Assembly (NCBI GenBank): GCA_015499995.1 | Contig: JADNRV010000002.1 | Location: 434,001-498,000 of the forward strand | Direction: 5' to 3' | DNA length: 64,000 bases | DNA from: Flammula alnicola | Lineage: Eukaryota; Basidiomycota; Agaricomycetes; Agaricales; Strophariaceae | Part shown: positions 10,081-38,700 of the stretch, in pieces | Numbering within the stretch: position 1 is the stretch's first letter | Layout: every line of letters begins with the position of its first letter | Notes under the pieces: model-generated | What the model was told of the DNA's origin: nothing | Database searches by the model: none | What the model saw: only the letters and a program-made list of their open reading frames with translations | Made by a program: the position numbers and the translations under genes

Positions 10081-10868
10081 CTAGCATTTGACCCGGGCTT
10101 TGCCCGGGGCGTGCCCCGTGCCCCTGAGCCAATAAATATTATACTATTTGTCTCGACTCTCTAGTTTGTCTCCCATAAACACTCAATTAGACAGACTGGA
10201 TCATGTTGCCACCTCATCCCATGCAATATCCTTCCGACTTGACCATTAAATATTGAATTAGAAGCCCATAGAATTAGAGTCTCAGAGTAAGAGCCCTGGG
10301 CCCCCATAGAGTAAGAGCCCCATAGAATAAGCAGCTTGTAGAATTAGAGCCTCATAGAATAATAAGCTCATATAATAAGAGGCTTGTAGAATAAGCAGAT
10401 TATAGAATAATAAGCTCATATAATAAGAGGCTTGTAGAATAAGCAGATTATAGAATAATAAGCTCATATAATAAGAGGCTTGTAGAATAAGCAGATTATA
10501 GAATTAGTAGCTCATAGAATTAGAGGCTTGTAAGTTGTAGAATTAGAGCTTTGTAGAATTAGAAGTTAGAACTTTGTAGAATAGAAGGCTTGTAGAATTA
10601 GAGGCTCATAGAATTCTCATGAGATACAACATGCCTTTAGTAGCTAAGATGTATGTATGCATTAAGAAATCAAGCAAGCAAAAGAGAGAGAAGAAAATAT
10701 TCTATCTACATACAGATATCCTTATATGGCAATTGTCTAGAGCTCGGCCAGTGCGCGGTGAGTCGAGACATCAGACTCGTTGACGATTATACACCTTGAC
10801 ATTCGCGCATTTGTGTCCCGTTTCGCGCATTTGTGCACGCCCGTGGGAACCGCCCTGCTTTTATAATA
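10081..10868 (-). mobile_element. non-autonomous Helitron G (main body)
   Basis: Read on the minus strand. Its 3' tip is CTAG (10081-10084) preceded by a GC-rich hairpin (CCCGGGC-AAA-GCCCGGG), with a host T following, as expected for Helitrons. Its 5' tip reads TCTATATTATAAAAGC, but its first four bases (TCTA) now lie at 18279-18282 because Helitron E inserted between TCTA and TATTATAAAAGC. The body contains a minisatellite and no gene. The same 5' motif occurs in Helitron F. Helitron structure (5' TC, 3' hairpin plus CTRR, insertion between A and T) is established knowledge; the assignment is from sequence reading. Confidence 0.75.
10282..10620. repeat. AT-rich minisatellite with 48-bp units
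   Basis: Inside Helitron G. Three near-identical 48-bp units (about 10362-10505, each containing AATAAGCTCATATAATAAG and GGCTTGTAGAATAAGCAG) are flanked by degenerate 15-17-bp pieces built from TAGAATTAGAG-like words. There are no spacers and no inverted structure, so it is not a CRISPR array. Confidence 0.9.
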
Positions 10869-10901
10869 CGAGCGCGTGACCCGTGCTTCGCACGGGCGTG
10901 C

Positions 10902-10910
10902 CGTTAGCCT
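10902..10910. repeat. left 9-bp target-site duplication of the DUF6589/RecQ transposon
   Basis: CGTTAGCCT, repeated exactly at 17583-17591. The intact mini-Helitron C has one copy of the equivalent site (CGTTGGCCT), so the second copy is a duplication made on insertion. Confidence 0.85.
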
Positions 10911-11115
10911 TAGGCTCGTCCCCATCCGGCTTCGCCACACATGAGACTAAGTGCACGTGGTTTGTGAGAGTAAACTCGACAACTGGCGAAGCCGGCTGGT
11001 CTGTTCCGGGACACTTTTGGCGGAGCCCGCCAATCTTGTTGTCGGTACTTAGTGAAAAAAGTGGCTTAAGTTCAAAAAAAGGTGTCAAAATTGAGTACAC
11101 AAAAAGTGATTATTT
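10911..11115. repeat. left terminal inverted repeat of the DUF6589/RecQ transposon
   Basis: Begins TAGGCTCG. Shares with the reverse complement of 17370-17582, in the same order: TTCCGGG (offset about 94 versus 87), CCGCCAATCTTG, GAAAAAAG and CAAAAAAAG followed by AAAATTGAGTA. Overall similarity is moderate with small gaps, strongest in the inner 110 bp. Confidence 0.8.
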
Positions 11116-11254
11116 TTTGATTTCAAGTCGATTAGAGTATATAAGATTTTTTCTGAAAAAAATGAAAATGGACTTGGTCATCATTGACAGGCCTGTGCGC
11201 GAGAATTAGAAGCCTCGCGTCAACCGTCGAAGCCACTCAAAACTCTCACCGCTG

Positions 11255-14200
11255 TCAGTCAAAATCAACACCCTCATCCTCTTCCTCACTCTCCTCATCC
11301 TCTGATTCCTCGTCGAGGTCCCAGCCATCCATATCCAAAGCCACATCATCTTCGTCAACACGTTGTAGTGTCGGCGATTCCATCAGTAATATTTCCATTT
11401 CGGGAGTAATATCTTGATCTTGTCGCTCTAAGTTGCCCTCAGATGCTGATTCTTCGTCAGACAGTGAGCTTTCATGTTCTTCATCGCTGAGTTCTTTGTG
11501 TAACAATTCTGTAGAATTTATTCTGATCTCTGCAAGCGCGCCGACTGCTGTTTCTCGCATAGATTCTGGCAGGTCGAAGTCGAGTTCATCCGTTATTGGG
11601 GTAAGCTTTCTTCGCTCTCGCAAACGGTCAAATTGCTGATTGAATTCTGCGATAGGGTTGCTCGAATTTCCGTGCGACAATTGCGCGATTCCAACTGAGA
11701 TAACATCAGGAACGGCGCGATCTTGTGGGTCCACAACACGACCAGGGATGATCTCGTATACATCATGTTCCTTGAGAACATTCATGAGGCGAATTATGTC
11801 CTTCTCGAGATCCGGGATGGTATGTTTTGAGCCTTGCTCTGTCCCCAGTTCGTGATTGATTTTTGTTGCCAGTTTCCGTAGAATTTCGACACACGGCGAG
11901 ACCAACGCAAGCCAATCCCAAGAATGACCGCCTCCCTCAGCTTTATAAACTCTCTTCAAACATATTCTGTAAGTTTTCTTCAATTGAGACATGGAAATAT
12001 GCTTACCTTGATCCAAAAATTCAGATGTTCTTGTACGAGATCAATTTCTACGAAAGCATTTGCTCTTCCTGTTGGATTGAGGAGCCAATTGTCGGTAACA
12101 ACTTTCCTGTAAATATTTATAAGAAACTGATATCAATTTTTTGCGTAGAACATACCGTATTTCCTTGGTCCACACATTAGTCAAGTTGTGCAAGAGGTGG
12201 AGCATCTCGTGCGCATATTTCATGCGACCATTTCCGCGATAGCTGAACGACCATTGTTTTAGTACCAATATCACAAGCCCTGAATCGCCTGACTTGACAG
12301 CATTTGCAAACAACCGTGTGAGCAATGCATCCCTCAAAAACAAACAGCCGTTTTCGAAGACCATATCGCCCTGGAGCTCAGCAGGTAAAGTCTCTGCTCT
12401 GTCATTGGTACTTCGACGCTGCTCACGCCGCCGGTTGCAGCGTCCGTCTTTTTTCTTTTTGCTTTCGCCTGTTCCTTCGCTTTCGCCTGTTCCTGCGCCT
12501 CCGCCCGTTTCGCTGCTGCAAGTCTAGGCTCTCGAAGCTCTTGCACACAATCTGCATTTGCAAACTTGGTGAGGATCTCCTTGGCGTGACCCTTCAATGT
12601 TGCCCACGACTTCATATTCCTCCCGTAATCTTCTAGAGACTCCTCCCCTGAAACCAAGAGCAAGCAGTGCAAAATTCGGGCGTAAAGTGAGATCATTATC
12701 AGATCTCTGCAAGTCCGGAATGATGGCAACGACGTCAAGACAATTGGTATTCGCTCCAGGCAGGTGTTGTGCCATGCCAGACTCCCTGGACTTCGCACAG
12801 ACGATACGCCGAAGTGAGTGAGGAGTGTCCCGTGCACGTCCGCGATCTTTGCGTGGAACAAACCAGTCACTAACACAAAATGTTTCCACATGTTCAGCCC
12901 GACCTCGTGTCCCAATCGAATGCCAGTAATTGCCCGTTGTCGTGCGATTGTAAGTTGGTCTCCGGCGATGAATTTGATGTATTTTTCGTAATCGGGGTTT
13001 TCAGGATCAAGCTGTAGCTCGGCGTTGATTTCTTCTACTACCTGAATATTGCCAGTGATTGTGTTTTCATCGATTTCCATGGATGGCAGAGGATGCAAGG
13101 GGGTTTTGTGAACTTCAATGGTCTCCGAACTCTTTGGTATGTCCTTCGCGAGATCTTGTTTCCAATGTTCAAACAGTTCACCCCCATAGTGCACGATCAC
13201 CGACAGGATAGTATAAACGAGAGCATCATCCATTAATTCGGACTCGTCCTCGGTCAATACAAGATTGTCGATCTTCAATGGCGGCGCATTAATTATTCCT
13301 TCATCTAGATGCTTGGTTTCAATGTCTTCAAGTTTTGCATCAAAGAGAGGTGCAACGGTGGCACATGTGCCGTTCTCTTGAGCGTCTATAACATTTGTAA
13401 GTCCTTTTCATCCACTGAAGTGTAAATTTTCATACTTTTCCGACCGAGAATTTGCTCGGCCACTTTGATCATCATGTTAACATTGTCATATACTGATATG
13501 AACAAATGGGATTTGGCGATCTTGCGTGCAGATTCTCGACATGCTTGTGAGAGTAGATATAATGTCCCTGGTGTTTTTCTCTTGCGCTTTTTGACTTTTG
13601 TGGCTTCCGCATCGCCTTCTGTTTCCTTGTCACTAACGACCTGCTTTTCAGAATGCGGCTTTGTTGCACTGGGACGTGCAATAACACTGTGATATGACAT
13701 GCCGATACCAAGGGCCGAGAATATGGTGAAATGCTGCCGTTGAGCGCCAGTGGCCATTAAGTATGTCCCAATAACGGACTGGGCATAATTATTGGTTCGA
13801 CTTTTTGACCTTAACAGGGCAAGAATGGCCGAGCCTTGGGCCTGAAGAATCCATGTAAGTTTCCTTTCCTTTCAACGTCAGAATTGAAATAAAAATACCA
13901 GTTCCTGTTTCTTCTGTGACTTTTCTTTTAGTTCTTTTTTCTGACGTTGGGTGGTCGAAAATGTGTCAAATATTGCGAAGGTGTTTGGCGCAAGCTCGCG
14001 AAGTCTGGCAGTGATGTTCTCCAGGCTGAACTGCAAGAAGAAGTCTTCGTTAACCACCATGGATGTCTTCCGCAACATCTTTGACTCCGAAATGGCCTTC
14101 GATTCGCGCCCAATAATTTTCTTTGCATGTTCTACTGCCCATTCCATGATAAATGAGTGCGTTGCATGGTTATAACCTGCTCCAGTCCAATAACCAAAGA

Positions 14201-14888
14201 TCTCCTTCACAGTCTCTCTTTGCTGAAAGAAACCTCGCCACCTCCAGTCGAAGATATGCCGTTTATCAGGATTGAACGTGTATTTGAGGAAGTCGGCTAA
14301 TGTTATGCCCTTTCGATGCAAGGAACCCAAAGTCTCGTCAAAAAACCTCTCCTTTTCTTGCGCCTCCCTCGCCTTGTTTTCCGCCATGGTTTGCAGACGC
14401 CTACTGGTCATGAGGTCCATTCGGTATCGCCTTTCAGCTCTGGGCGTCAAAATTGTATAGCCATCATCTGTTGTGGTTTCTGGGACCGGGGTTGGAAGTG
14501 AAGAGCTGCGATTACGGCGAGGGTAATGGTACGTTTGATGTTGGTTGCGTAATAATGAAGCTAATGGTGTGTCGTCAGATGTTGGCTGTACTTCGTTGTT
14601 TTGAAGAGGAACGTCGTCAGATGTCCAGAAGTTATTTTGAAGAGGAATGTCGTCAGACGTTGCTACTGGAATATCTTGAAGGGTATCTTCTTCATCATCG
14701 GTAAGGAATGGATTTTCTTCAGTGGTCTCGATGTAAATAGGCTCATCATCTTCTTCGATCTCTTCAGGTGGATCTGAAGGAGGAAGATCGTCGAAACCTG
14801 GAATATCATTGTCCGAAGCATTGTCGGAAGAAAGCACTATATGCCGTCGTCGATGCTGAGACTGAGGATGGCGGGGCAACATTGACAT
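11255..14888 (-). CDS. DUF6589-like protein, candidate transposase
   Basis: Multi-exon gene read leftward from the ATG at 14888 (MSMLPRHPQ). The first intron is about 13842-13898; later exons fall near 13386-13841, 12400-13380, 12170-12364 and 11255-12116. The acidic N-terminus contains three SDD-P-L-type repeats, followed by a helical region. The core shows motifs I associate with the fungal family DUF6589: RSKSRTNNYAQ, VYDNVN (about 13480), FIAGDQLT (about 12960), VTGLFHAK (about 12860), then NWLLNPTG, DLVQEHLNFWIK and a C-terminal Glu/Asp-rich tail. Conserved acidic residues (YDN, GDQ, QEH) could form a DDE-like site, but this is conjecture. About 1,000 residues. It is the only unassigned core gene in a bounded transposon, which suggests a mobilisation role. 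Confidence 0.75.
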
Positions 14889-14982
14889 AATCAGAAACAC
14901 AGAAATTACATAAAGTTTTATTCTCGATCATCTTTTCCTTTTTCCACAACTGCAAACTCCCATTCTTCCTCATTCAAAAAAA
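14889..14982. promoter_or_regulatory. divergent promoter between the DUF6589-like and RecQ genes
   Basis: Only 94 bases separate the two start codons (14888 minus, 14983 plus). This AT-rich gap must drive both transposon genes, arguing that they are expressed together. No unambiguous TATA box is claimed. Confidence 0.55.
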
Positions 14983-17289
14983 ATGCCTCCAGCATATTCT
15001 CAACCTCCTTTGGGTACTCGCCACAAAGCAAAACGAAATATTTATCTGGCCAAGCTTGCCGCTCTTGAGCGAGAGCTCGAAAAGCTACCTGAACTTATCA
15101 AGACGCGATTCAAGAAATGGACTAATGGTGCTCGCGAGTTCCAGCTGTCTTGTATGCGAGCGCAAGTCCTCAAGAAGGATGTCCTCCTTCAGGCGGCGAC
15201 TGGTTCAGGGAAAACTGGAATTGCTGCTGGTCCACACCTTTTGCCATCAAGTCAGGGCAAAGTAACATTAGTAGTGTCGCCGCTGATCGCTCTTGAGGAT
15301 GAACAAGTATGTCATTTAGCAATATATATATACTGCGGCTGATTTATAAAACCAGGTTTCTACCTTTCAAGATGAGTTTGGTCTGAAAGCGACTGCTATT
15401 AATGCAGCCAATGGGGGCTGTAGCCCATCTGTTATGGCGGTTAGTCAAAGATCTTTCTATCATATCATTCATATGACGGTCACTGAGATATTTTTATAGG
15501 AAGTAGTCGGTGGAGAATGGCAGATCGTCATCTTATCCCCTGAGATGCTTTTGTCCCGCAAGTTCAGTGATGGTGTCCTTCGCAGACCTGAATTTGGCCC
15601 TCGTTGCTTGTCAATTTTTATTGACGAGGCCCATTGTATTTCACATTGGGGTGCTTCTTTTCGCAAAGCATACAGCTCGATTGGAATTGTCCGTGCTTTT
15701 CTACCTCGAAACACACCTATTGTTGCAGTCACAGCGACTCTCACCCCCCTCGTTCATCAAGACATACTCAGCAAGTTACAGTTTGATCGCAGTGAACATT
15801 TATTCGTGAATATAGGAAACGACCGCGCCAACGTCTCACAAGTAGTTCGCGCTATGGAACACCCTGCGAACAGCTTCCGCGACCTCGACTTCCTTGTCCC
15901 AGCATCAAATTCATCTCCCACCGACATCCTCAAAGGTTTCGTCTACTCGGATGATATCAAGGCTGGCGCTTCAATTGTCGATTACCTCAATGAGCGTGTA
16001 GATTCCAAATACCGCTATCTGGGACTCGTCCGACCGTACAATGCAACCATGTCAAAGTCGTATAGGAAGCAGGTTATGCAGCTGTTCCGACAGGGAAAAG
16101 TACGCATTCTGGTTTGTACAGACGCAGCCGGCATGGTATGTTTCACCTTTGGATATTTACATGCTAATACTAATGGCTCTCTTTATTTAGGGTTGCGACA
16201 TTCCTGATATCGACATTGTCACACAGTGGAAAGTCCCCAAGAACGTCTCTTCATGGGTTCAGCGCGCCGGTCGTGCAGCACGAGGACCAGGGCGACAAGG
16301 CCTTGCTGTCATGATCGTTGAAAAGTCGGCCTTCGAAATTGCCACATCACAACTGACAGCAGAGGTGCCAAGCCAGGCCAAAGGGCGAGGACGTGGGCGG
16401 GGCAAGGCTCAAGGTCGGGCTGCAGCCACGAAGAATGGTGCTCATTATGCTGTAGCTCATGGTCAGAGACGAGGGATGTTTGGCGGAGCTTATGACAAGG
16501 TGGTCTCACTTGACGAGACACATATTACATTGGAAACACTTCAGGATTCACCAGGAGAAGGTATTTACTTGTATATTCAAACGACGAATTGTCGGCGCTC
16601 TCTCTTGCGGACAATTTTTCAGAATAATCCTTCGGGTATGCCTATCCTTCTTTGTTTAGTAGATGCTTATTTTTTTTTCAAGCTGTTGGCAAAATGTCGT
16701 GTTGTGATGTGTGCAATCCCCAATTGTTTGATACTGTCCGCCCCAGCAAGCCCCAACAAGCAACACGTCAGACAGCACTCAAACGTGTTGCACCCATTGA
16801 TTCAGTCCGGATGGCGCTTTACAGATGGAGGCGAGAGATTAAGGCTAAGAATTGGCCATGTAGCATGTGGGGCCCACAAGCTATTCTTGACGACAACACT
16901 TGCGAGCTTTTAGCTTCCCTTGGACCTGTTGAATCAGAAGAATTCCTATCTTCAGTCCTTAAAGCGGGCTGGGCATGGTGGGATACACTCGGCACTGAGT
17001 TGTTTTCCTTCCTTCATGGTCTCGACATTCCCCCCTCCCACAAGCTTCACGAGGCACCAAACGACGACCGCCAATCTCCGCACAAGAAACTGGACCCTCG
17101 ACATCAGCTGCTACCCACGAGTCACCAACCAAGCGTGCGCGTACTACAGCACCAACAACGTCATCAACCTCGGCTCAGACTGCACCTGCAGCACCTCGTG
17201 CACGGGGAATGAGAGACCGAGCCCCATTGCAATTTGCACCGACAGGGTATGATGGCTTTTGGTCTTCATTGGATAACACACCGAAGTAG
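14983..17289 (+). CDS. RecQ-family DNA helicase, transposon-borne (telomere-linked-helicase type)
   Basis: Exons 14983-15306, 15356-15439, 15500-16135, 16191-16635 and 16683 to the end. Helicase motifs appear in order: Walker A TGSGKTGIA, VSPLIALEDEQ, IFIDEAHCISHWG, VAVTATLTP, ILVCTDAAGMGCDIPD and SWVQRAGRAARGPG, the RecQ-type motif VI. After the helicase core comes a cysteine cluster (NCRR, then SCCDVCNPQL), like the RecQ zinc-binding region, and a basic Gly/Arg insert (GRGRGRGKAQGR). RecQ enzymes unwind DNA 3'-5' using ATP. The 3' end changes frame once near a run of six C's at about 17030. With one more base the protein would continue to the stop at 17289; as written it would end at 17212. 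Pairing with the DUF6589-like gene suggests helicase help in transposition or repair. Confidence 0.85.
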
Positions 17290-17369
17290 CTACAGTCAAT
17301 AGTCAATATCATACAAGTTTTCAAAAAAAAAATCACCTTTTTAAAAACTATTTTATTCAATTCAAAATG

Positions 17370-17582
17370 TAAAAAAAATGATATTATGTATACTCAATTT
17401 TAGCACTTTTTTTGGAGGTGTGGCCACCTTTTTTCGACGAAGTCGACACATCAAGATTGGCGGGGTCACCTAAAACACGCCCGGAATAGCCCAGTCCGCT
17501 CGCGAGCTCGCTCCTTCCTTGTCATGTGCTCCCGTTACGCTCTGTGACTAGAGCTCGCGAGCGTGACTGGCTAGCGAGTCTA
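17370..17582. repeat. right terminal inverted repeat of the DUF6589/RecQ transposon
   Basis: Ends CGAGTCTA, the imperfect inverse of the left tip TAGGCTCG. Its reverse complement carries TTCCGGG, CCGCCAATCTTG, GAAAAAAGG and CAAAAAAAG plus AAAATTGAGTA, in the same order as the left end. Confidence 0.8.
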
Positions 17583-17591
17583 CGTTAGCCT
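17583..17591. repeat. right 9-bp target-site duplication of the DUF6589/RecQ transposon
   Basis: CGTTAGCCT, identical to 10902-10910. It is immediately followed by mini-Helitron sequence AGATGTCGGCAGAGAGACG, continuous with copy C. Confidence 0.85.
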
Positions 17592-17695
17592 AGATGTCGG
17601 CAGAGAGACGTGTGAGACGGTGACTTGTTTGTCTGTGACCAATTGTGACACATCTTTGTCCGTCACGTGGGAAAGACCCTCTTCGATTTATAGTA

Positions 17696-21380: not shown

Positions 21381-22920
21381 ATCAATCTAGTAGAATTTCT
21401 TCATACACTACATTAGATGTAAGAGGCTCTACCGTATCATCTGGAAGCAGAATTTTAATGTTATGACTTGAAGTAGCTCGTGAGAGCGCGACATAGAGCT
21501 GTCCATGGGCAAACACCGGAATCCACACATCAAGGCCTACATATCGTATCGATTGTCCCTGTGATTTGTTGATCGAAAGAGCGAATGCTAGTTGGATGGG
21601 AAATTGGCGACGCTTAAATCGAAAGGTTACATCTGCAGATCGTGAGCTTGGGGTCAGGGTAATGCGGGGAATCAAGGCTATTTCGCTATCGTGCTCTCCA
21701 CCAAGAAGCTGGACCTCGAGAACTCGGTTGTTCATTCTCATGATAATCATGCGAGTGCCATTACAGAGACCTTGAGATGGCGAAAGGTTGCGAAGGAGGA
21801 TGACTGGGCACCCAACTTTGAGGTTCAGTTCACCTGGAGGAAGACTGGAGGCATGAATAGATCTCAAGAATTCGACAGGAACTTGGTCGTCGTCTGCTGG
21901 ATCGGCCCCAGTTTCGTGTATCATCTGGTCTGCACTGATATATTGCCGAACATCGCCGTATATCCTTTCGAGGATTTGGTTGTTGAGATCTCCGACGTCC
22001 GCATTTCGGGGGGCAAGGATCATGCGATTAAGGAAGTACTCCGGCGGAGGTGGTGGATTAGAATCGACACCAGGATATATTGAATCAATAAGTGATTCAA
22101 CGTCATTAACCTGCATGTGGTCAGGTAGACGGACCTGAATACCATCACCAACCATATTTCGGCCATGACCTACATTGAGGAGCCATGCGGCAAACTGCTG
22201 GGCATCTGCTGACCCTCGATCGATGCGCATATTCTGGCAGAGGTGGAGAATTTCAACGTGCTGCCACAGTTGAGATCACTGGATGGTTGCGCTGATGATA
22301 TCTGCCCGTGAACCTTTCGGTACAATAGGGAGTGTTTGAAGGAAGTCGCCACCGAGAACCACAGTGAGGCCAGCAAAGGGTCGGTTATCATTGCGAATGT
22401 CACGCAGAGTGCGTTCAAGTGCTTCAATAGCATGTCGATGTTGAGCGCCAACTTCGTCCCATATGATAGCCTTTGTTGCGCGAAGAAGGTCGGCCCGGGT
22501 ACTATCCTTCGGTATGTTGCACATTGAGCCTTCGGTAAGCATGTCGGTTGGAATTTTGAATGTCGAATGAGCTGTGCGCCCTCCACGAATGAGAAGTGCG
22601 GAAATGCCGGACGACGATACACAAAGAATGATGTGCCCATCACTGCGAAGCTTTGAACAGATTGTGTTGTAAAGGTATGTCTTGCCCGTACCACCAGAGC
22701 CTTGGACAAAGAAGACTCTTCCCTGATCTTGTTCGATTGCGGTAATGATCATTGTGTAAGCCACATGCTGTTCGTCGTTCAACTGAGGAAGTCTTTCCTC
22801 CAGAGTGGCATGTTCGAGTTCTCGGTCATAATTGAGTTGCTCAGTAATCAGAGGATTGACGGTGAGTGCAGTCCAATCACGAACAGGTCTGGGCATCGAT
22901 GGAAAGTCAGCCAGAGAATG

Positions 22921-23153
22921 TGTTGAAATCAAATCTGGAAGTGCGCGATCATCTCAAGATCGGACTGAGGGAAGCAGAGAAATGTTGAATTCCGGTTGGC
23001 CTCTGTGAACATAGGAGGGCAAACAGATGGAGACTAAAGTACACAATGACCGGCTTATGTATGTAGTCTAGCAATGAAAATCATGGGATTGAATCCCGAC
23101 GCACGTTGACTGGTGCATCGCGCATGCTCGCACAACCTCCCAATATTCCAACA
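22921..23153. repeat. LTR copy 1 (233 bp)
   Basis: Starts TGTTGAAATC, ends TTCCAACA. Preceded by duplication GAATG at 22916-22920. Confidence 0.9.
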
Positions 23154-23776
23154 CACTCCCTCGAGCGAAGCGGTGCACCCAAGAACACTCCCTGAAACCA
23201 AAAATCCCCAAAAAGCGAAATAAAAGATCAATAAAAATTCCCCATCAATCTCCAACATGCAAACCATGGTCCATGCTGCTGAGAGCTGCGACAAGCAAGT
23301 TTTAGGCGATAGGGAAGGCAATCGGCATCAAGCAAGGTGAGAATCGGAAACAGAATAAATCGAGCCGAGAATCGAGAGGTAGGTGAATTCAGTGGGTAAA
23401 ACTCTCTGCGGCGGTGTCCAAATGAGAACAAAAACGAGTCGGCACTCGGTGTGGAAACGGAAATCCAAAGCAAGTCGGCAAAATAAAATCCAGCGAGGGT
23501 AAAAATCCAATCCATCGAGGGCAGCGGGGCAGCATACAGCAAATCAATCTGCAAATAAAAATCTTGACCATCGAGCGAAGCGGCAGGTAGGCATCGGCAA
23601 GATGAATAGGCGCGCACTGGCATGCGGGGCAGCGTTCTTCGGCTCTCGAAATGTGGGGTTCATCCAACAAAAAATCCTTCAAAGACTTCAAAACTCGTCT
23701 TGTCCAACAAAATTAATCAAATCTTCAAATACGGCATCTTCAAAAACCGTGCCTCCAAGCCTGAGGACTTAGCGTG

Positions 23777-23883
23777 CGCCGATCTTCAACAGCGACTTTT
23801 CTTCTTCAACATGCGCTGATCGTCGACAGCGACTTTTCTTCATAAACATGCGCCGATCTTCAACGGCGGCTTTTCTTCTTCAC
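23777..23883. repeat. three 37-bp tandem units inside the LTR element
   Basis: Units start at 23777, 23814 and 23851, each beginning CGC(C/T)GATC and containing GCGACTTTTCTTC or a close variant. Non-coding. Confidence 0.85.
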
Positions 23884-24176
23884 GGAATTTCGGTCCAGAA
23901 CTGTCTTCTGCAGGTTTAGAGGCTCTGCAGCCTTCTTCTGCCTCAGCGTCGACATGCGAGGGCTTCAACAGGTGCGCTTCGAGCAAGCGACTTGTCTTCG
24001 GGCATCAGGAAGAGAAAACGGCCCGGCTGGGAGACGTCGAATCGCGAGTCTTCAACTCGAGCAAGATCCGAGAGGTCGAGTGAACAAGTTACGGCGGCGG
24101 CGAAGGAACAAACCAGAGAGCGTCGCAACGGGGTGTATGTGAGACTGACCCACCTGAGAGGACAGGCATCCGTTTG

Positions 24177-24409
24177 TGTTGAAATCAAATCTGGAAGTGC
24201 GCGATCATCTCAAGATCGGACTGAGGGAAGCAGAGAAATGTTGAATTCCGGTTGGCCTCTGTGAACGTAGGAGGGCAAACAGATGGAGACTAAAGTACAC
24301 AATGACCGGCTTATGTATGTAGTCTAGCAATGAAAATCACGGGATTGAATCCCGACGCACGTTGACTGGTGCATCGCGCATGCTCGCACAACCTCCCAAT
24401 ATTCCAAAA
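24177..24409. repeat. LTR copy 2 (233 bp)
   Basis: Same length as copy 1. Visible differences are few, for example GAACATAG versus GAACGTAG, AATCATGGG versus AATCACGGG, and the last bases CAACA versus CAAAA. Followed by GAATG. Confidence 0.9.
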
Positions 24410-27400
24410 GAATGTGCAGAGTCGCGTAGGATCTTGTCGAGTAGAAAGAGCCCATAATCATAAACGTCTTCTTCAGGTGGATTGTGGATTCCCATTGATC
24501 GCAGATGGCGTTCCAGATCATCGCAGATGTGTTGTCGGAATTCAAGCCACAATGTATCAGGCTGCGCAAGCTCTCCGAAAAGCAGAAGAGTTGCAAAAAG
24601 ATACCGGAGTCGGGTGCCAGTCTGCATTTCAGATGCTTCTTGAAGGCAAAGTCGCCATTCGCCGTCATCCTCGAGAAGGCCTCGGGCTAGGCAGGCAGCA
24701 TAGAAGGTGGGAAGTGGATTGTGGTGCCCTGGCACCCTGCGAAGGTCGTCGAATGATTTTGCTCCTTTAACGACGGTAAGAAGTGTACGAAGGTAAAACT
24801 GTTCTCCTGCGGTAGGTTTAATGAAATACATTCGCCCCAGGGCAAAGCCCTTCTGCCTTAGCGTCCATTTCCGCTCATTCACGTTATAGACGAAATATTG
24901 AGGAAACTCTTGGTAAGTGTGTTTGCGAGCTTCTTCACCCAAGGGTCCAGGATCTGCGTTTGCGTCAAAGAAGGCAGTTAATGACGTTTTCTGATGTGCG
25001 CCGCGGTCAAGAACAGTATCGATGTCATCGTTGGGATCGAAAATAACCATATGGTGGTTAGGCAGGTGTATCTGGAGACGAACAACGTTTGGAATCTGTT
25101 CGTGTAGCTCATAGTGGAAGATTCGCCAAATAGCATCCGGTGCGGAAATGTAGCGGCCTTCGATCCAGCGTTTGACTTCATCGTGCCGGTGAAGCTCAAG
25201 GAGAGCACGATCTGGCCCCTTCTGAATATACTTGAAGGCATACTTGAACGTTCCAAGCGAGACCGCGCATTCCATGTTGATATGGCAGTGGAAATCGGCA
25301 CAGAGAAGTGGTGGGTATGAGACAATCCATCGGTTATCCACTGTTACTCCTCCTACATCATATGCCCGCCCATCGTTTGGTCGATAATACAGAGGATAGC
25401 CGTGATAATCCATAGTCGTGAATTCCTGAAAATCCTTTGGGTAGCCCTTGCTGCATTTTCCGTTAACCATGCATGGTGCGGAGGGATTCAAAGGCCCGCA
25501 AGGTCCGTGTATCATGCACTTCTTGACCGTTTCAAACAGAAGTGGCTGCATCACAGGATCTGGCCAACGGGCCCATATACAGGAGTCTATTGCTTCAGGT
25601 GTTAGCAATTTGTAAGGCTCCTTGAGGAAAATGAGGATGTGCATGTGTGGAAGGCCGCGTTTTTGAAATTCAATTGTATACACATACGCGATGGCTTTTC
25701 CGAATACACCATGTTTGTAAATGTAATCGACGACCGCCTTCTTCTTCATCTGAAACACGCGAGCGACTAAATCTGGTCGGTCATAGGCCGTTTGTCCAGG
25801 AAGGAGCTCCCGTTCAATTTCAACCCAATTAGGATTTGTCGTCATGGTGAGAAATATGTCGACCTTTCGGAAATAGCGGGCAATGGCCATGGAGTCCTGA
25901 AAGCACTGAGCCATGTTGCGAGGACCACCCATGTAAGAGGAAGGAAGGATGACACGCTGTCCAAGATCATTGAGATCTAAGTTATTGTCCTCGTCGTTAG
26001 CTGCGGCATCTTCTAAATTATTGAACCTTGCCGCTCGGAAAGTCTCTTGGTTGCGTATAATCCAGAAAAGCCTCTGCTGATCAACAGATGCAAACATATC
26101 GACAGTGTAACAGTTAAAAAGTCGACCACCACGAAGAAGCAAATTAAATTCGTTTGGTCGATAGTGAATTCGGAAGGCCACATAGCGCGTCAACGTAAGA
26201 CGCCTGGACTGAGAAAGTGGGCCTTGTTCCACCTGCAATCCTCTCTCACCTCGTCGTTGTCGTCGAGCATTTTGCTGCTGGAGCCGGTTGTTTCGCTGTT
26301 CCGCAGACTCATGCAGCACCATTTCTGGATACCATCCATTTTCCCCATGTGGGAACAGAAGAGGATACTGAAGGGGCACATATGCCAGATGGAGGTCGCT
26401 AATTCGTTGCAATGGTCCTGCCCGAAGGCGAAGAATGATATCACGGGGTTCTGTTGATGCATTTCCAGGTAAAATAACAGCCACCTCATCAGCTGTTGGC
26501 AGGTTGTAGCGACGATGGTCGAGGCCAGGCAAGAGGCGAAGCCGAATCTCAACATCATTGGCAGGATCGTAGTTGCACAGGACTTCAAAAGCATGACGGT
26601 AAAGAGGAACGTATTGGTGGTGTTCAGAGAGCATCTCCTGGAGTGAACACATGATCTCGCGATCAAGGTCGGCATTCTGTTGCATGCGCAAATCCAATGC
26701 AGCGCGCGGCTCATAAAAATAGAGTTGGGCATAGGAAGGAGGGCGAATTCCTCTCGATATCAATGATCCTGAGTTGTGGTAAAGCTCTCCAAAGATCCTG
26801 AAGACAGGTGGTCCCCTTCCCTCATTGACGGAATGATCCTGTTCGATGCCGAGTGAGGTAAAGGCCAATGCACGGTTGTATTTCCATATTTCATCCCGAA
26901 ATGTCACCGCGTCACGCTCTTCAGACGTGAGAAGCCATCGAAGAGGTTCAGGTGCAGCCTCATGTACCGGAAGGCGAACCTTTCCCTCCATGCAGCATGA
27001 TCCAAACTTGGGTGATTGCTTGGAACTGTCAGAAAGCTTCTCTGCGAGCCAGTGAAGAGCTCCACAGAACGGACACGGAATATTCATCCGGCCTAAATCG
27101 TGTCGGCTGGGCGGTTCCACATATGGATGATGGCCTGCAAGGAACAGCTGTAGTGTCCTTCGTCGGCGCGCGACGGGTTGTTGAGGATTGCCACATGCAG
27201 CAGGGTGACCTTGAGAAAAGAATGAGTAACATATACTCAAGTTAGTTTAATGGACACACCTTCATGTTCTTCGTGTCCTGAGCGCACGAGTGCTGGTCCA
27301 TTTTCTGGTACTTCATCACCTTCCGGGTCTTCTATAGAGTCCGTTAGCTGCAGAGTGTGAAGGATGCAATAAGAATACTGACCATCAGCGAATGCATTAT

Positions 27401-35767: not shown

Positions 35768-38700
35768 ATGAGTCAAGGTAGCTCTTACTCACTAATTTCA
35801 ATATATCATACTCAATCCGCCCCGAGATCCCAACGCAACGCAAGATGCTTTCTATGACGAAGCTACTTATGGCATGGAAGACGACGAAGATTCTTACGAG
35901 GAGATAACACAGGAGGATTGCTGGACCGTCATTTCCAGCTTTTTCGAACAAAAAGGTCTCGTGCGTCAGCAACTAGATTCCTTCGACGAATTCGTGCAAA
36001 ATACTATGCAAGAGCTCGTGGACGAAAATGCCGACCTTATACTGGATCAAGCCGATCAGCATACGGGACACGACACGGATATGACTCGTCGATACGAAAT
36101 CAAATTTGGGCAAATCTTCCTGTCGCGTCCAACAGTCACTGAAACCGATGGTTCAGTGGTGCCGGTATTCCCTCAAGAGGCCAGGTTGCGTAACCTCACG
36201 TACTCCGCACCATTGTACATTGAGATGACGAAGAAGGTTCTCATTGGTCGCGAGGATCCAGATGGGATGCCGGGAGATATTGCCTGGGAGCCAGAGAATG
36301 AAGATGAGTCGGCAACTAAAGTCTGGATCGGAAAGGTGTGTATGATTGTTCATTGGAACTAGTGGAATTTCCCATCTTTCGGAAAGGTTCCTATTATGCT
36401 GCGGTCGACGTTCTGCATTTTGCGCGGACTCCAAGACCAGGACCTATACGACCTCAATGAATGCCCATACGACTCTGGAGGCTACTTCATCATCAATGGC
36501 TCTGAAAAAGTGCTTATTGCTCAAGAACGCATGGCAACCAATCACGTCTATGTCTTCGCTAAGGCCCAACCATCACCGATCAACTTTCTTGCTGAGATCC
36601 GTAGTGCTGTGGAAAGAGGGGGAAAGACCATCAGTCAGTTCCAAGTTAAGATGTTCCATAGGAACCAAGAACGCTCGGTGAGTTTTATTGTTGGTATTTG
36701 GTGTAGAGCGCAATTCATTTCTTTCCAAAAGCTCGGTAACGTAATGAAGGCGACAATTCCATACATCAAGGTCGATATACCCATCTGGGTCGTGTTTCGT
36801 GCACTTGGCGTCATATCTGATCGCGATATCTTGGAGCACATTTGCTACGACATGCAAGATAGCCAAATGTTGGAGATGTTGAAACCTTGTATCGACGATG
36901 GCTTCGTTATTCAAGACCGAGAAGTCGCTTTGGACTTCATTGGCAACCGTGGCACCACAACGGGTCTCTCGCGAGAACGCCGCATTCGATATGCCCAAGA
37001 AATTTTGCAGAAAGAGATGCTCCCGCACGTATCGATGGGCGAAGGATCCGAATCGAAGAAAGCATACTTCTTTGGCTATATGATTCATCGGCTTCTGCTT
37101 GCTGCGTTGGAACGCCGGGAATTAGATGATCGTGATCATTTTGGAAAAAAACGTCTTGATCTCGCTGGACCCTTGCTGGCCAATCTTTTCCGAATGCTGT
37201 TTAGGAAGTTAACGAAGGATGTTTACCGCTATCTCCAAAAGGTACGAATTAAGTCAAACTGAAATGCGTGACTGGCATGCTAATGTTGTCCCATGCAGTG
37301 CGTCGAGGCACACAAAGAGTTCAATCTTGCTCTAGCTGTCAAGCATCAGACAATCACCAATGGTCTCAAATACTCGTTGGCGACCGGTAACTGGGGTGAT
37401 CAGAAGAAGTCAATGTCTTCAAAAGCCGGTGTGTCGCAAGTGCTGAATCGTTATACCTACGCATCTACTTTGTCACATTTGCGTCGCTGCAACACTCCAC
37501 TTGGACGAGAAGGCAAAATCGCCAAGCCTCGTCAACTTCACAATACCCATTGGGGAATGGTATGCCCTGCGGAAACACCAGAAGGTCAAGCTTGCGGTCT
37601 CGTCAAGAATTTGGCTTTGATGGCATGCATTTCCGTCGGCTCACTGTCTGCACCCGTTATCGAGTTCTTGGAAGAGTGGGGTTTAGAATCGTTGGAGGAG
37701 AATGCCCATTCGACAACCCCTTGTACGAAGGTTTTCGTTAACGGTGTTTGGATGGGTGTTCATCGTGATGCTGCCAATTTGGTCAAAACCTTGAAGAAGT
37801 TGAGGAGAAGGGATGACATCAGTCCTGAAGTGTCGGTTGTGCGAGATATCCGAGAGAAGGAACTACGACTATATACCGATGCTGGTCGAGTTTGCAGGCC
37901 ATTATTCATCGTGGAGAACCAGCAACTGGCTCTGCAGAAAAAGCACATCAAGTGGCTCAATAGCGGTGTCAATGACCAAAAAGAGGAGTACAAGTGGGAG
38001 CACTTGATCAAGGGCGGTGTCGTTGAACTATTGGACGCAGAGGAAGAAGAGACAGTCATGATTTCCATGACTCCGGAGGACCTGGAGAATTCACGACTGC
38101 AGCAAAGTGGTGTAGATCCTCACGCGAACGAGGGAGAATTTGATCCTGCTGCGCGGCTAAAGGCTGGGACGCATGCACATACATGGACGCATTGCGAGAT
38201 TCATCCTAGCATGATTCTCGGTATTTGTGCCAGCATCATTCCGTTCCCTGACCACAACCAGGTAAGTTGATCCATATCTCGAATGTCCTTCCACCCATAC
38301 TCAGTTACTTTTTATCAGTCCCCTCGTAACACATACCAATCTGCTATGGGTAAGCAGGCCATGGGAATCTACCTCACCAACTTCTTGATTCGCATGGATA
38401 CGATGGCAAATATACTATACTACCCCCAGAAACCTCTTGCGACTACGCGTTCTATGGAATATCTCAAATTCCGAGAATTGCCCGCCGGTCAAAATGCCAT
38501 TGTCGCCATCCTGTGTTACAGTGGCTATAATCAAGAGGATTCCGTCATTATGAACCAGAGCTCCATTGATCGTGGTCTTTTCCGAAGTATCTACTACAGG
38601 AGTTATATGGACCTGGAGAAGAAGTCGGGAATTCAGCAGCTAGAAAATTTCGAGAAGCCGACCCGAGACAATACTCTGCGTCTTAAGCATGGTACTTACG

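Follow-up and report, generated by a model that had tools for sequence, protein, structure and literature searches.

The window analyzed here, a 64,000-bp stretch of the Flammula alnicola genome (contig C112, positions 434001–498000), contains a 6,672-bp element at 10911–17582 that encodes a DUF6589 protein and a RecQ-type helicase. From its ends, its copies across the 74.4-Mb, 861-contig genome that was searched, and the modelled fold of the DUF6589 family, we consider it likely that this is a DNA transposon of AcademH-like type, apparently complete, in which DUF6589 serves as a DDE transposase with an RNase-H fold, a judgment that covers element, transposase and name jointly. Structural models make it very probable that DUF6589 proteins act as transposases in a helicase-associated group of DNA transposons; this proposal, made in an original prediction from the letters of the window, is well supported by the duplications and tips shared at other loci and by the DDE-type modelled fold.

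Boundaries, copies and shared ends

A perfect 9-bp duplication, CGTTAGCCT, flanks the element; the left tip, TAGGCTCG, begins at 10911, and the right tip, which reads TAGACTCG as its reverse complement, stops at 17582. Alignment of the ∼250-bp ends gives 171 identical columns out of 262 (65%) and a score of 215, as compared with a maximum of 103 when one end was shuffled (n = 200). The uninterrupted target, with one CGTTAGCCT, is found at three loci (L045 on C301, L046 on C334 and L047 on C559; three sites aligned from 51 matches). L047 is identical to the window flanks at 119 of 120 bases, and L045 and L046 show small gaps as well, which are distant from the junction. Because these pre-insertion sites read straight across the junction and have a single CGTTAGCCT, the boundaries of the element are proved. 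The precise limits claimed originally, with 9-bp duplications, matching tips and inverted ends, are confirmed to the base by the end alignment and the three empty sites, and the edges match exactly.

The left 290 bases of the element have at least 25 matches in the genome and the right 283 bases at least 31, counts that include cross-matching between the two ends. Both tips are present in 14 copies, a number that leaves out L025–L028, which have a single or poor end. Perfect 9-bp duplications, each of a different sequence, flank 12 of these copies, while the two on C823 and C113 have no 9-bp duplication. Five of the 14 are derivatives of 531–572 bp, too short to hold either gene. Over 572 bases the C218 derivative does not differ from that on C201, and the two lie between different duplications, from which we infer that such short forms were recently mobile; a longer derivative on C223 is identical to this pair over 480 bases.

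The target of the window copy (10817–10910 and 17583–17668) belongs to a dispersed repeat with clustered copies on some contigs, e.g., C501, C168 and C247, and one further copy lies ∼700 bases downstream of the element. Two short derivatives, L018 (C34) and L009 (C165), lie in copies of one repeat common to both, possibly a favoured target. For the C34 derivative and its repeat, the whole joined target is spanned by 28 of 62 matches (three were aligned). On C261 (L012 and L013), one DUF6589/RecQ element is nested in another, the outer duplication being GCTAAACCA and the inner CCCTGTTGA.

Fourteen loci outside the family of the window, a part of all DUF6589/RecQ loci found, were examined for similar ends: 13 with DUF6589 and RecQ, and C612 with RecQ only. 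The presence of DUF6589 at 13 of the 14 is no evidence in itself because these were picked for having it. With a YAGNY pattern that was fixed after tips had been seen, 8 of the 14 show tips of this form next to a 9-bp duplication (C201, C623, C667, C545a, nested C261, C279, C848 and C443). The same test finds none at 8, 10 or 11 bp and 2 of 14 at 7 bp, and a 9-bp YAGNY case arises in 27 of 4,200 first-order Markov shuffles. A stricter match over 14 tip bases is complete at C201, C623 and C667 (14 each) and reaches 13 at C848 and 12 at nested C261, in each case with 0 of 200 shuffles doing as well. C279 scores 10 (2/200 shuffles), and C443 scores 8 (56/200), where a rival candidate scored 9. 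C545a fails this match (92/200), and its support comes from an internal inverted repeat together with the duplication. By the stricter measure, therefore, 5 or 6 of the 14 loci are strong and 2 are weak. Ends were not found at C545b, C64, C323b, C612, C114 and C12, although C114 and C12 have inverted repeats without a duplication; these six may have decayed, or their ends may lie beyond the fetched flanks. Duplications and related tips are thus shared by other DUF6589/RecQ loci as anticipated. As for the proposed signature of a 9-bp duplication with TAGRCTCG tips, the duplication holds and the tip is better written YAGNY, since the tips of other families begin CAGACTCC, CAGGCTCC, TAGTCTCG or TAGGTTCG.

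The DUF6589 protein as predicted transposase

Nine frames of the element, picked from 28 of at least 80 amino acids, were scanned with Pfam. Three of them, all on the minus strand, match PF20231 (DUF6589) with E-values of 1.5e-63, 1e-29 and 4.1e-9, and no other transposase domain is seen in these nine. The spliced DUF6589 frame is free of stops over 1,122 codons, its introns, like those of the helicase gene, being predicted from splice sites and frame. The family assignment, made originally from YDN, GDQLT, GLFHAK and QEH motifs, is borne out by Pfam, but YDN does not fall within the Pfam domain: its aspartate is D449 in the numbering of the spliced protein, whereas the match starts at about residue 499.

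Conservation points to D449, D608 and E883 as putative catalytic residues. The D, D and E are invariant in two distant DUF6589 families, at RNase-H positions of the secondary structure. AlphaFold models of both families have DDE transposases as their best matches, in line with the nuclease-like fold that had been expected, though the Foldseek E-values are weak and the match is remote. The predicted fold consists of an RNase-H core with a long all-helical insertion ahead of the last acid. A DUF6589 profile found nothing convincing among PDB sequences (best E 0.52).

DUF6589 might instead be an accessory protein, e.g., one that binds the ends, with the catalytic transposase coming from another element. 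The remoteness of the fold match leaves room for this, as does the fact that catalysis by DUF6589 is a prediction from models. Two distant families both retain the three acids (D, D and E) at RNase-H positions, and the nine frames show no other transposase domain; these points argue against it, and we hold an accessory role to be very unlikely.

Searches with the DUF6589 protein found 254 and 273 homologues, and among the matches listed (120 each) the names are almost only "hypothetical" or "DUF6589 domain-containing". An artificially doubled query aimed at long fusion proteins gave two matches (Meripilus lineatus and Amylostereum chailletii), neither with a helicase or XPG domain, and a scan of viral contigs gave 37 pattern matches, of which 0 were confirmed. 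DUF6589 is not named in the literature searched, including by way of PF20231 and IPR046496, and the text matches to "pf20231" that were opened proved to be a dated database name.

The RecQ-type helicase and its pairing with DUF6589

The plus-strand gene matches DEAD (E 3.8e-19) and Helicase_C (E 7.9e-18) in Pfam, and its 471-residue helicase core has WRN, RECQ5 and RecQ as its best solved relatives in the PDB. These results agree with the original description of two divergent genes, one of them a RecQ helicase. The short gap between the two start codons (Table 1) is presumably a two-way promoter.

A genome scan with PF20231 gave 74 exon matches, which merge into 36 clusters. Within 9 kb of 27 of these clusters there is sequence matching a single exon of the window helicase. 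The 27 are not independent cases because some are near-identical copies; 20 of the pairs are convergent, 6 divergent and 1 on the same strand. Gene order varies among families; the nested C261 element and the window family are among the 6 divergent pairs. Compared with the window helicase, those paired with DUF6589 in other families show 28–52% identity. Pairing in 27 of 36 clusters despite such divergence suggests that DUF6589 and RecQ form a selected partnership.

The helicase could also be carried as a passenger, or have been a host gene once, with DUF6589 alone moving the element, a reading compatible with DUF6589 as transposase. Consistent with this, short derivatives retain the ends only (though they could borrow a helicase), and subtelomeric RecQ genes exist in fungi, e.g., in Agaricus bisporus var. 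burnettii according to a passage in PMC7473861. Furthermore, 9 of the 36 clusters lack a RecQ match up to 9 kb away; 7 of these 9, however, span <450 bases. The recurrence of RecQ at such divergent loci, near-identical copies among them, also tells against a passenger, which we regard as rather unlikely. The window helicase and the subtelomeric RecQ helicases of fungi share a RecQ-type core; the former is set apart by location rather than by sequence comparison, as it lies inside a bounded transposon within a 1.4-Mb contig.

Table 1. Features of the element and its flanks (window positions).
Feature	Position	Strand	Basis or detail
Left target site duplication CGTTAGCCT	10902..10910	.	Single copy in three empty sites
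Left end, tip TAGGCTCGTCCCCA, imperfect inverted repeat of right end	10911..11160	+	End alignment
DUF6589 gene, 1,122 codons, six exons	11255..14888	-	Pfam PF20231; GT..AG sites and frame
DUF6589 exons	14888-13899, 13841-13436, 13385-12427, 12370-12156, 12106-12007, 11953-11255	-	Predicted splicing
Gap between divergent start codons, 94 bp	14889..14982	.	From exon models
RecQ-type SF2 (superfamily 2) helicase gene	14983..17289	+	Exons 14983-15306, 15356-15439, 15500-16135, 16191-16560
Helicase 3' part, CCDVC cysteine stretch, splicing uncertain		+	3' reading frames
Right end, tip (reverse complement) TAGACTCGCTAGCC	17335..17582	-	End alignment
Right target site duplication CGTTAGCCT	17583..17591	.	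Duplication comparison, empty sites

Elsewhere in the window, a Helitron-like gene at 21385–27246 on the minus strand combines Helitron_like_N (24340–27246, E 4.8e-59) with a Pif1 2B domain (21385–22275), and domains 3, 4 and 5 of an RNA polymerase second-largest subunit (Rpb2-type) lie at 37284–38267 on the plus strand.

Placement among DNA transposons and proposed mechanism

AcademH, a lineage of the Academ superfamily, is reportedly due to Kojima in 2020. Published statements on this and other groups are taken here from individual passages of the sources. Academ is ranked among the DDD/E superfamilies, and AcademH is its helicase-encoding lineage in fungi and animals. It makes 9- or 10-bp duplications, AcademX making 3 or 4 (PMC10045372), and it occurs in Basidiomycota, Ascomycota and Mucoromycota (PMC10799480). 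Among fungal Academ copies, 81% have recognisable domains, e.g., DEAD/DEAH helicase and recQ_fam, and are for this reason often annotated as host genes (PMC6416283); putative non-autonomous Academ elements are widespread in the mushroom Marasmius oreades (PMC8290104). The window element resembles AcademH as a helicase-encoding DNA transposon of a basidiomycete host: it encodes an SF2 (RecQ-like) helicase, makes 9-bp duplications (12 of 14 copies, 8 of 14 outside loci and the empty sites) and carries, by prediction with weak Foldseek E-values, a DDE transposase in the same element. The original suggestion of an unrecognised superfamily is not supported, since helicase-encoding AcademH with 9- or 10-bp duplications (PMC10045372) and fungal Academ with recQ_fam (PMC6416283) are in print.

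This likeness is one of description rather than of transposase sequence, tips or gene order, and DUF6589/RecQ elements could form a separate superfamily that merely resembles AcademH in its helicase and 9-bp duplications. That the searched literature does not name DUF6589 and that the AcademH passages do not mention YAGNY tips would be compatible with such a separation. The helicase, the 9-bp duplication and the fungal host each agree with AcademH, and unrelated groups sharing all three would be less economical; we therefore find a separate superfamily unlikely. A little less probable still is its fullest form, in which a superfamily distinct from Academ, with a hAT/P-like-fold DDE transposase, RecQ, YAGNY tips and 9-bp duplications, would be common in mushroom genomes and some fungal "subtelomeric" RecQ genes would be its relics. 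KolobokH, the fungi-only Kolobok lineage, encodes a RecQ helicase (PMC9587614), but the odds that it accounts for the element are negligible, and we exclude it because Kolobok duplicates TTAA, whereas the 9-bp duplications here are of unrelated sequence; the window helicase is, moreover, a separate gene on the opposite strand.

The nuclease of AcademX is XPG, and Helitrons insert without a target duplication. AcademX was rejected because the duplication is 9 bp rather than 3–4 and the nine frames have no XPG match, and Helitron because a duplication is present and the same frames have no match to Helitron_like_N, Helitrons carrying a HUH nuclease (PMC12730594). With hAT (Hermes) and the P element transposases, the predicted DUF6589 fold shares an RNase-H core in which a large helical insertion precedes the last acid; differences are the absence of any match to them in the PDB by sequence profile, the 9-bp duplication and the extra helicase gene. 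hAT duplications are 8 bp, or 5, 6 or 7 in some lineages (PMC12730594), and hAT was rejected on the 9-bp duplication and the absence of a hAT match in the Pfam scans made, though the fold resembles Hermes. KDZ/Zisupton and Plavaka likewise belong to the DNA transposons of fungi and may have an additional enzyme gene (TET/JBP), and Zisupton duplications are 8 bp (PMC12730594). KDZ/Zisupton was rejected, as the window family has 9 bp and 0 of 14 outside loci show 8; the word "RecQ" occurs 0 times in the text of that article on KDZ/Zisupton.

For the AcademH-like element, we propose that the DUF6589 protein would bind the ∼250-bp ends, cut at the YAGNY tips and join the ends to the target with a 9-base stagger, repair of which would yield the 9-bp duplication. 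Movement would be by cut-and-paste rather than by copying. The RecQ helicase would act as a partner, its most likely task being to open the DNA of the ends or of the strand-transfer junction or to aid gap repair, and short derivatives that keep only the ends would be moved in trans.

Within the literature searched, three points appear to be new: the DUF6589 assignment, the predicted hAT/P-like fold and the YAGNY tips. The results likely give a concrete function to DUF6589, a Pfam family of unknown function, and offer 9-bp duplications with YAGNY tips as a diagnostic. They would correct the annotation of DUF6589 and neighbouring RecQ genes, which, as passages on fungal Academ indicate (PMC6416283), are easily mistaken for host genes. 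Finally, a two-gene element with apparently recently mobile short derivatives provides a system for probing the role of a transposon-borne helicase.
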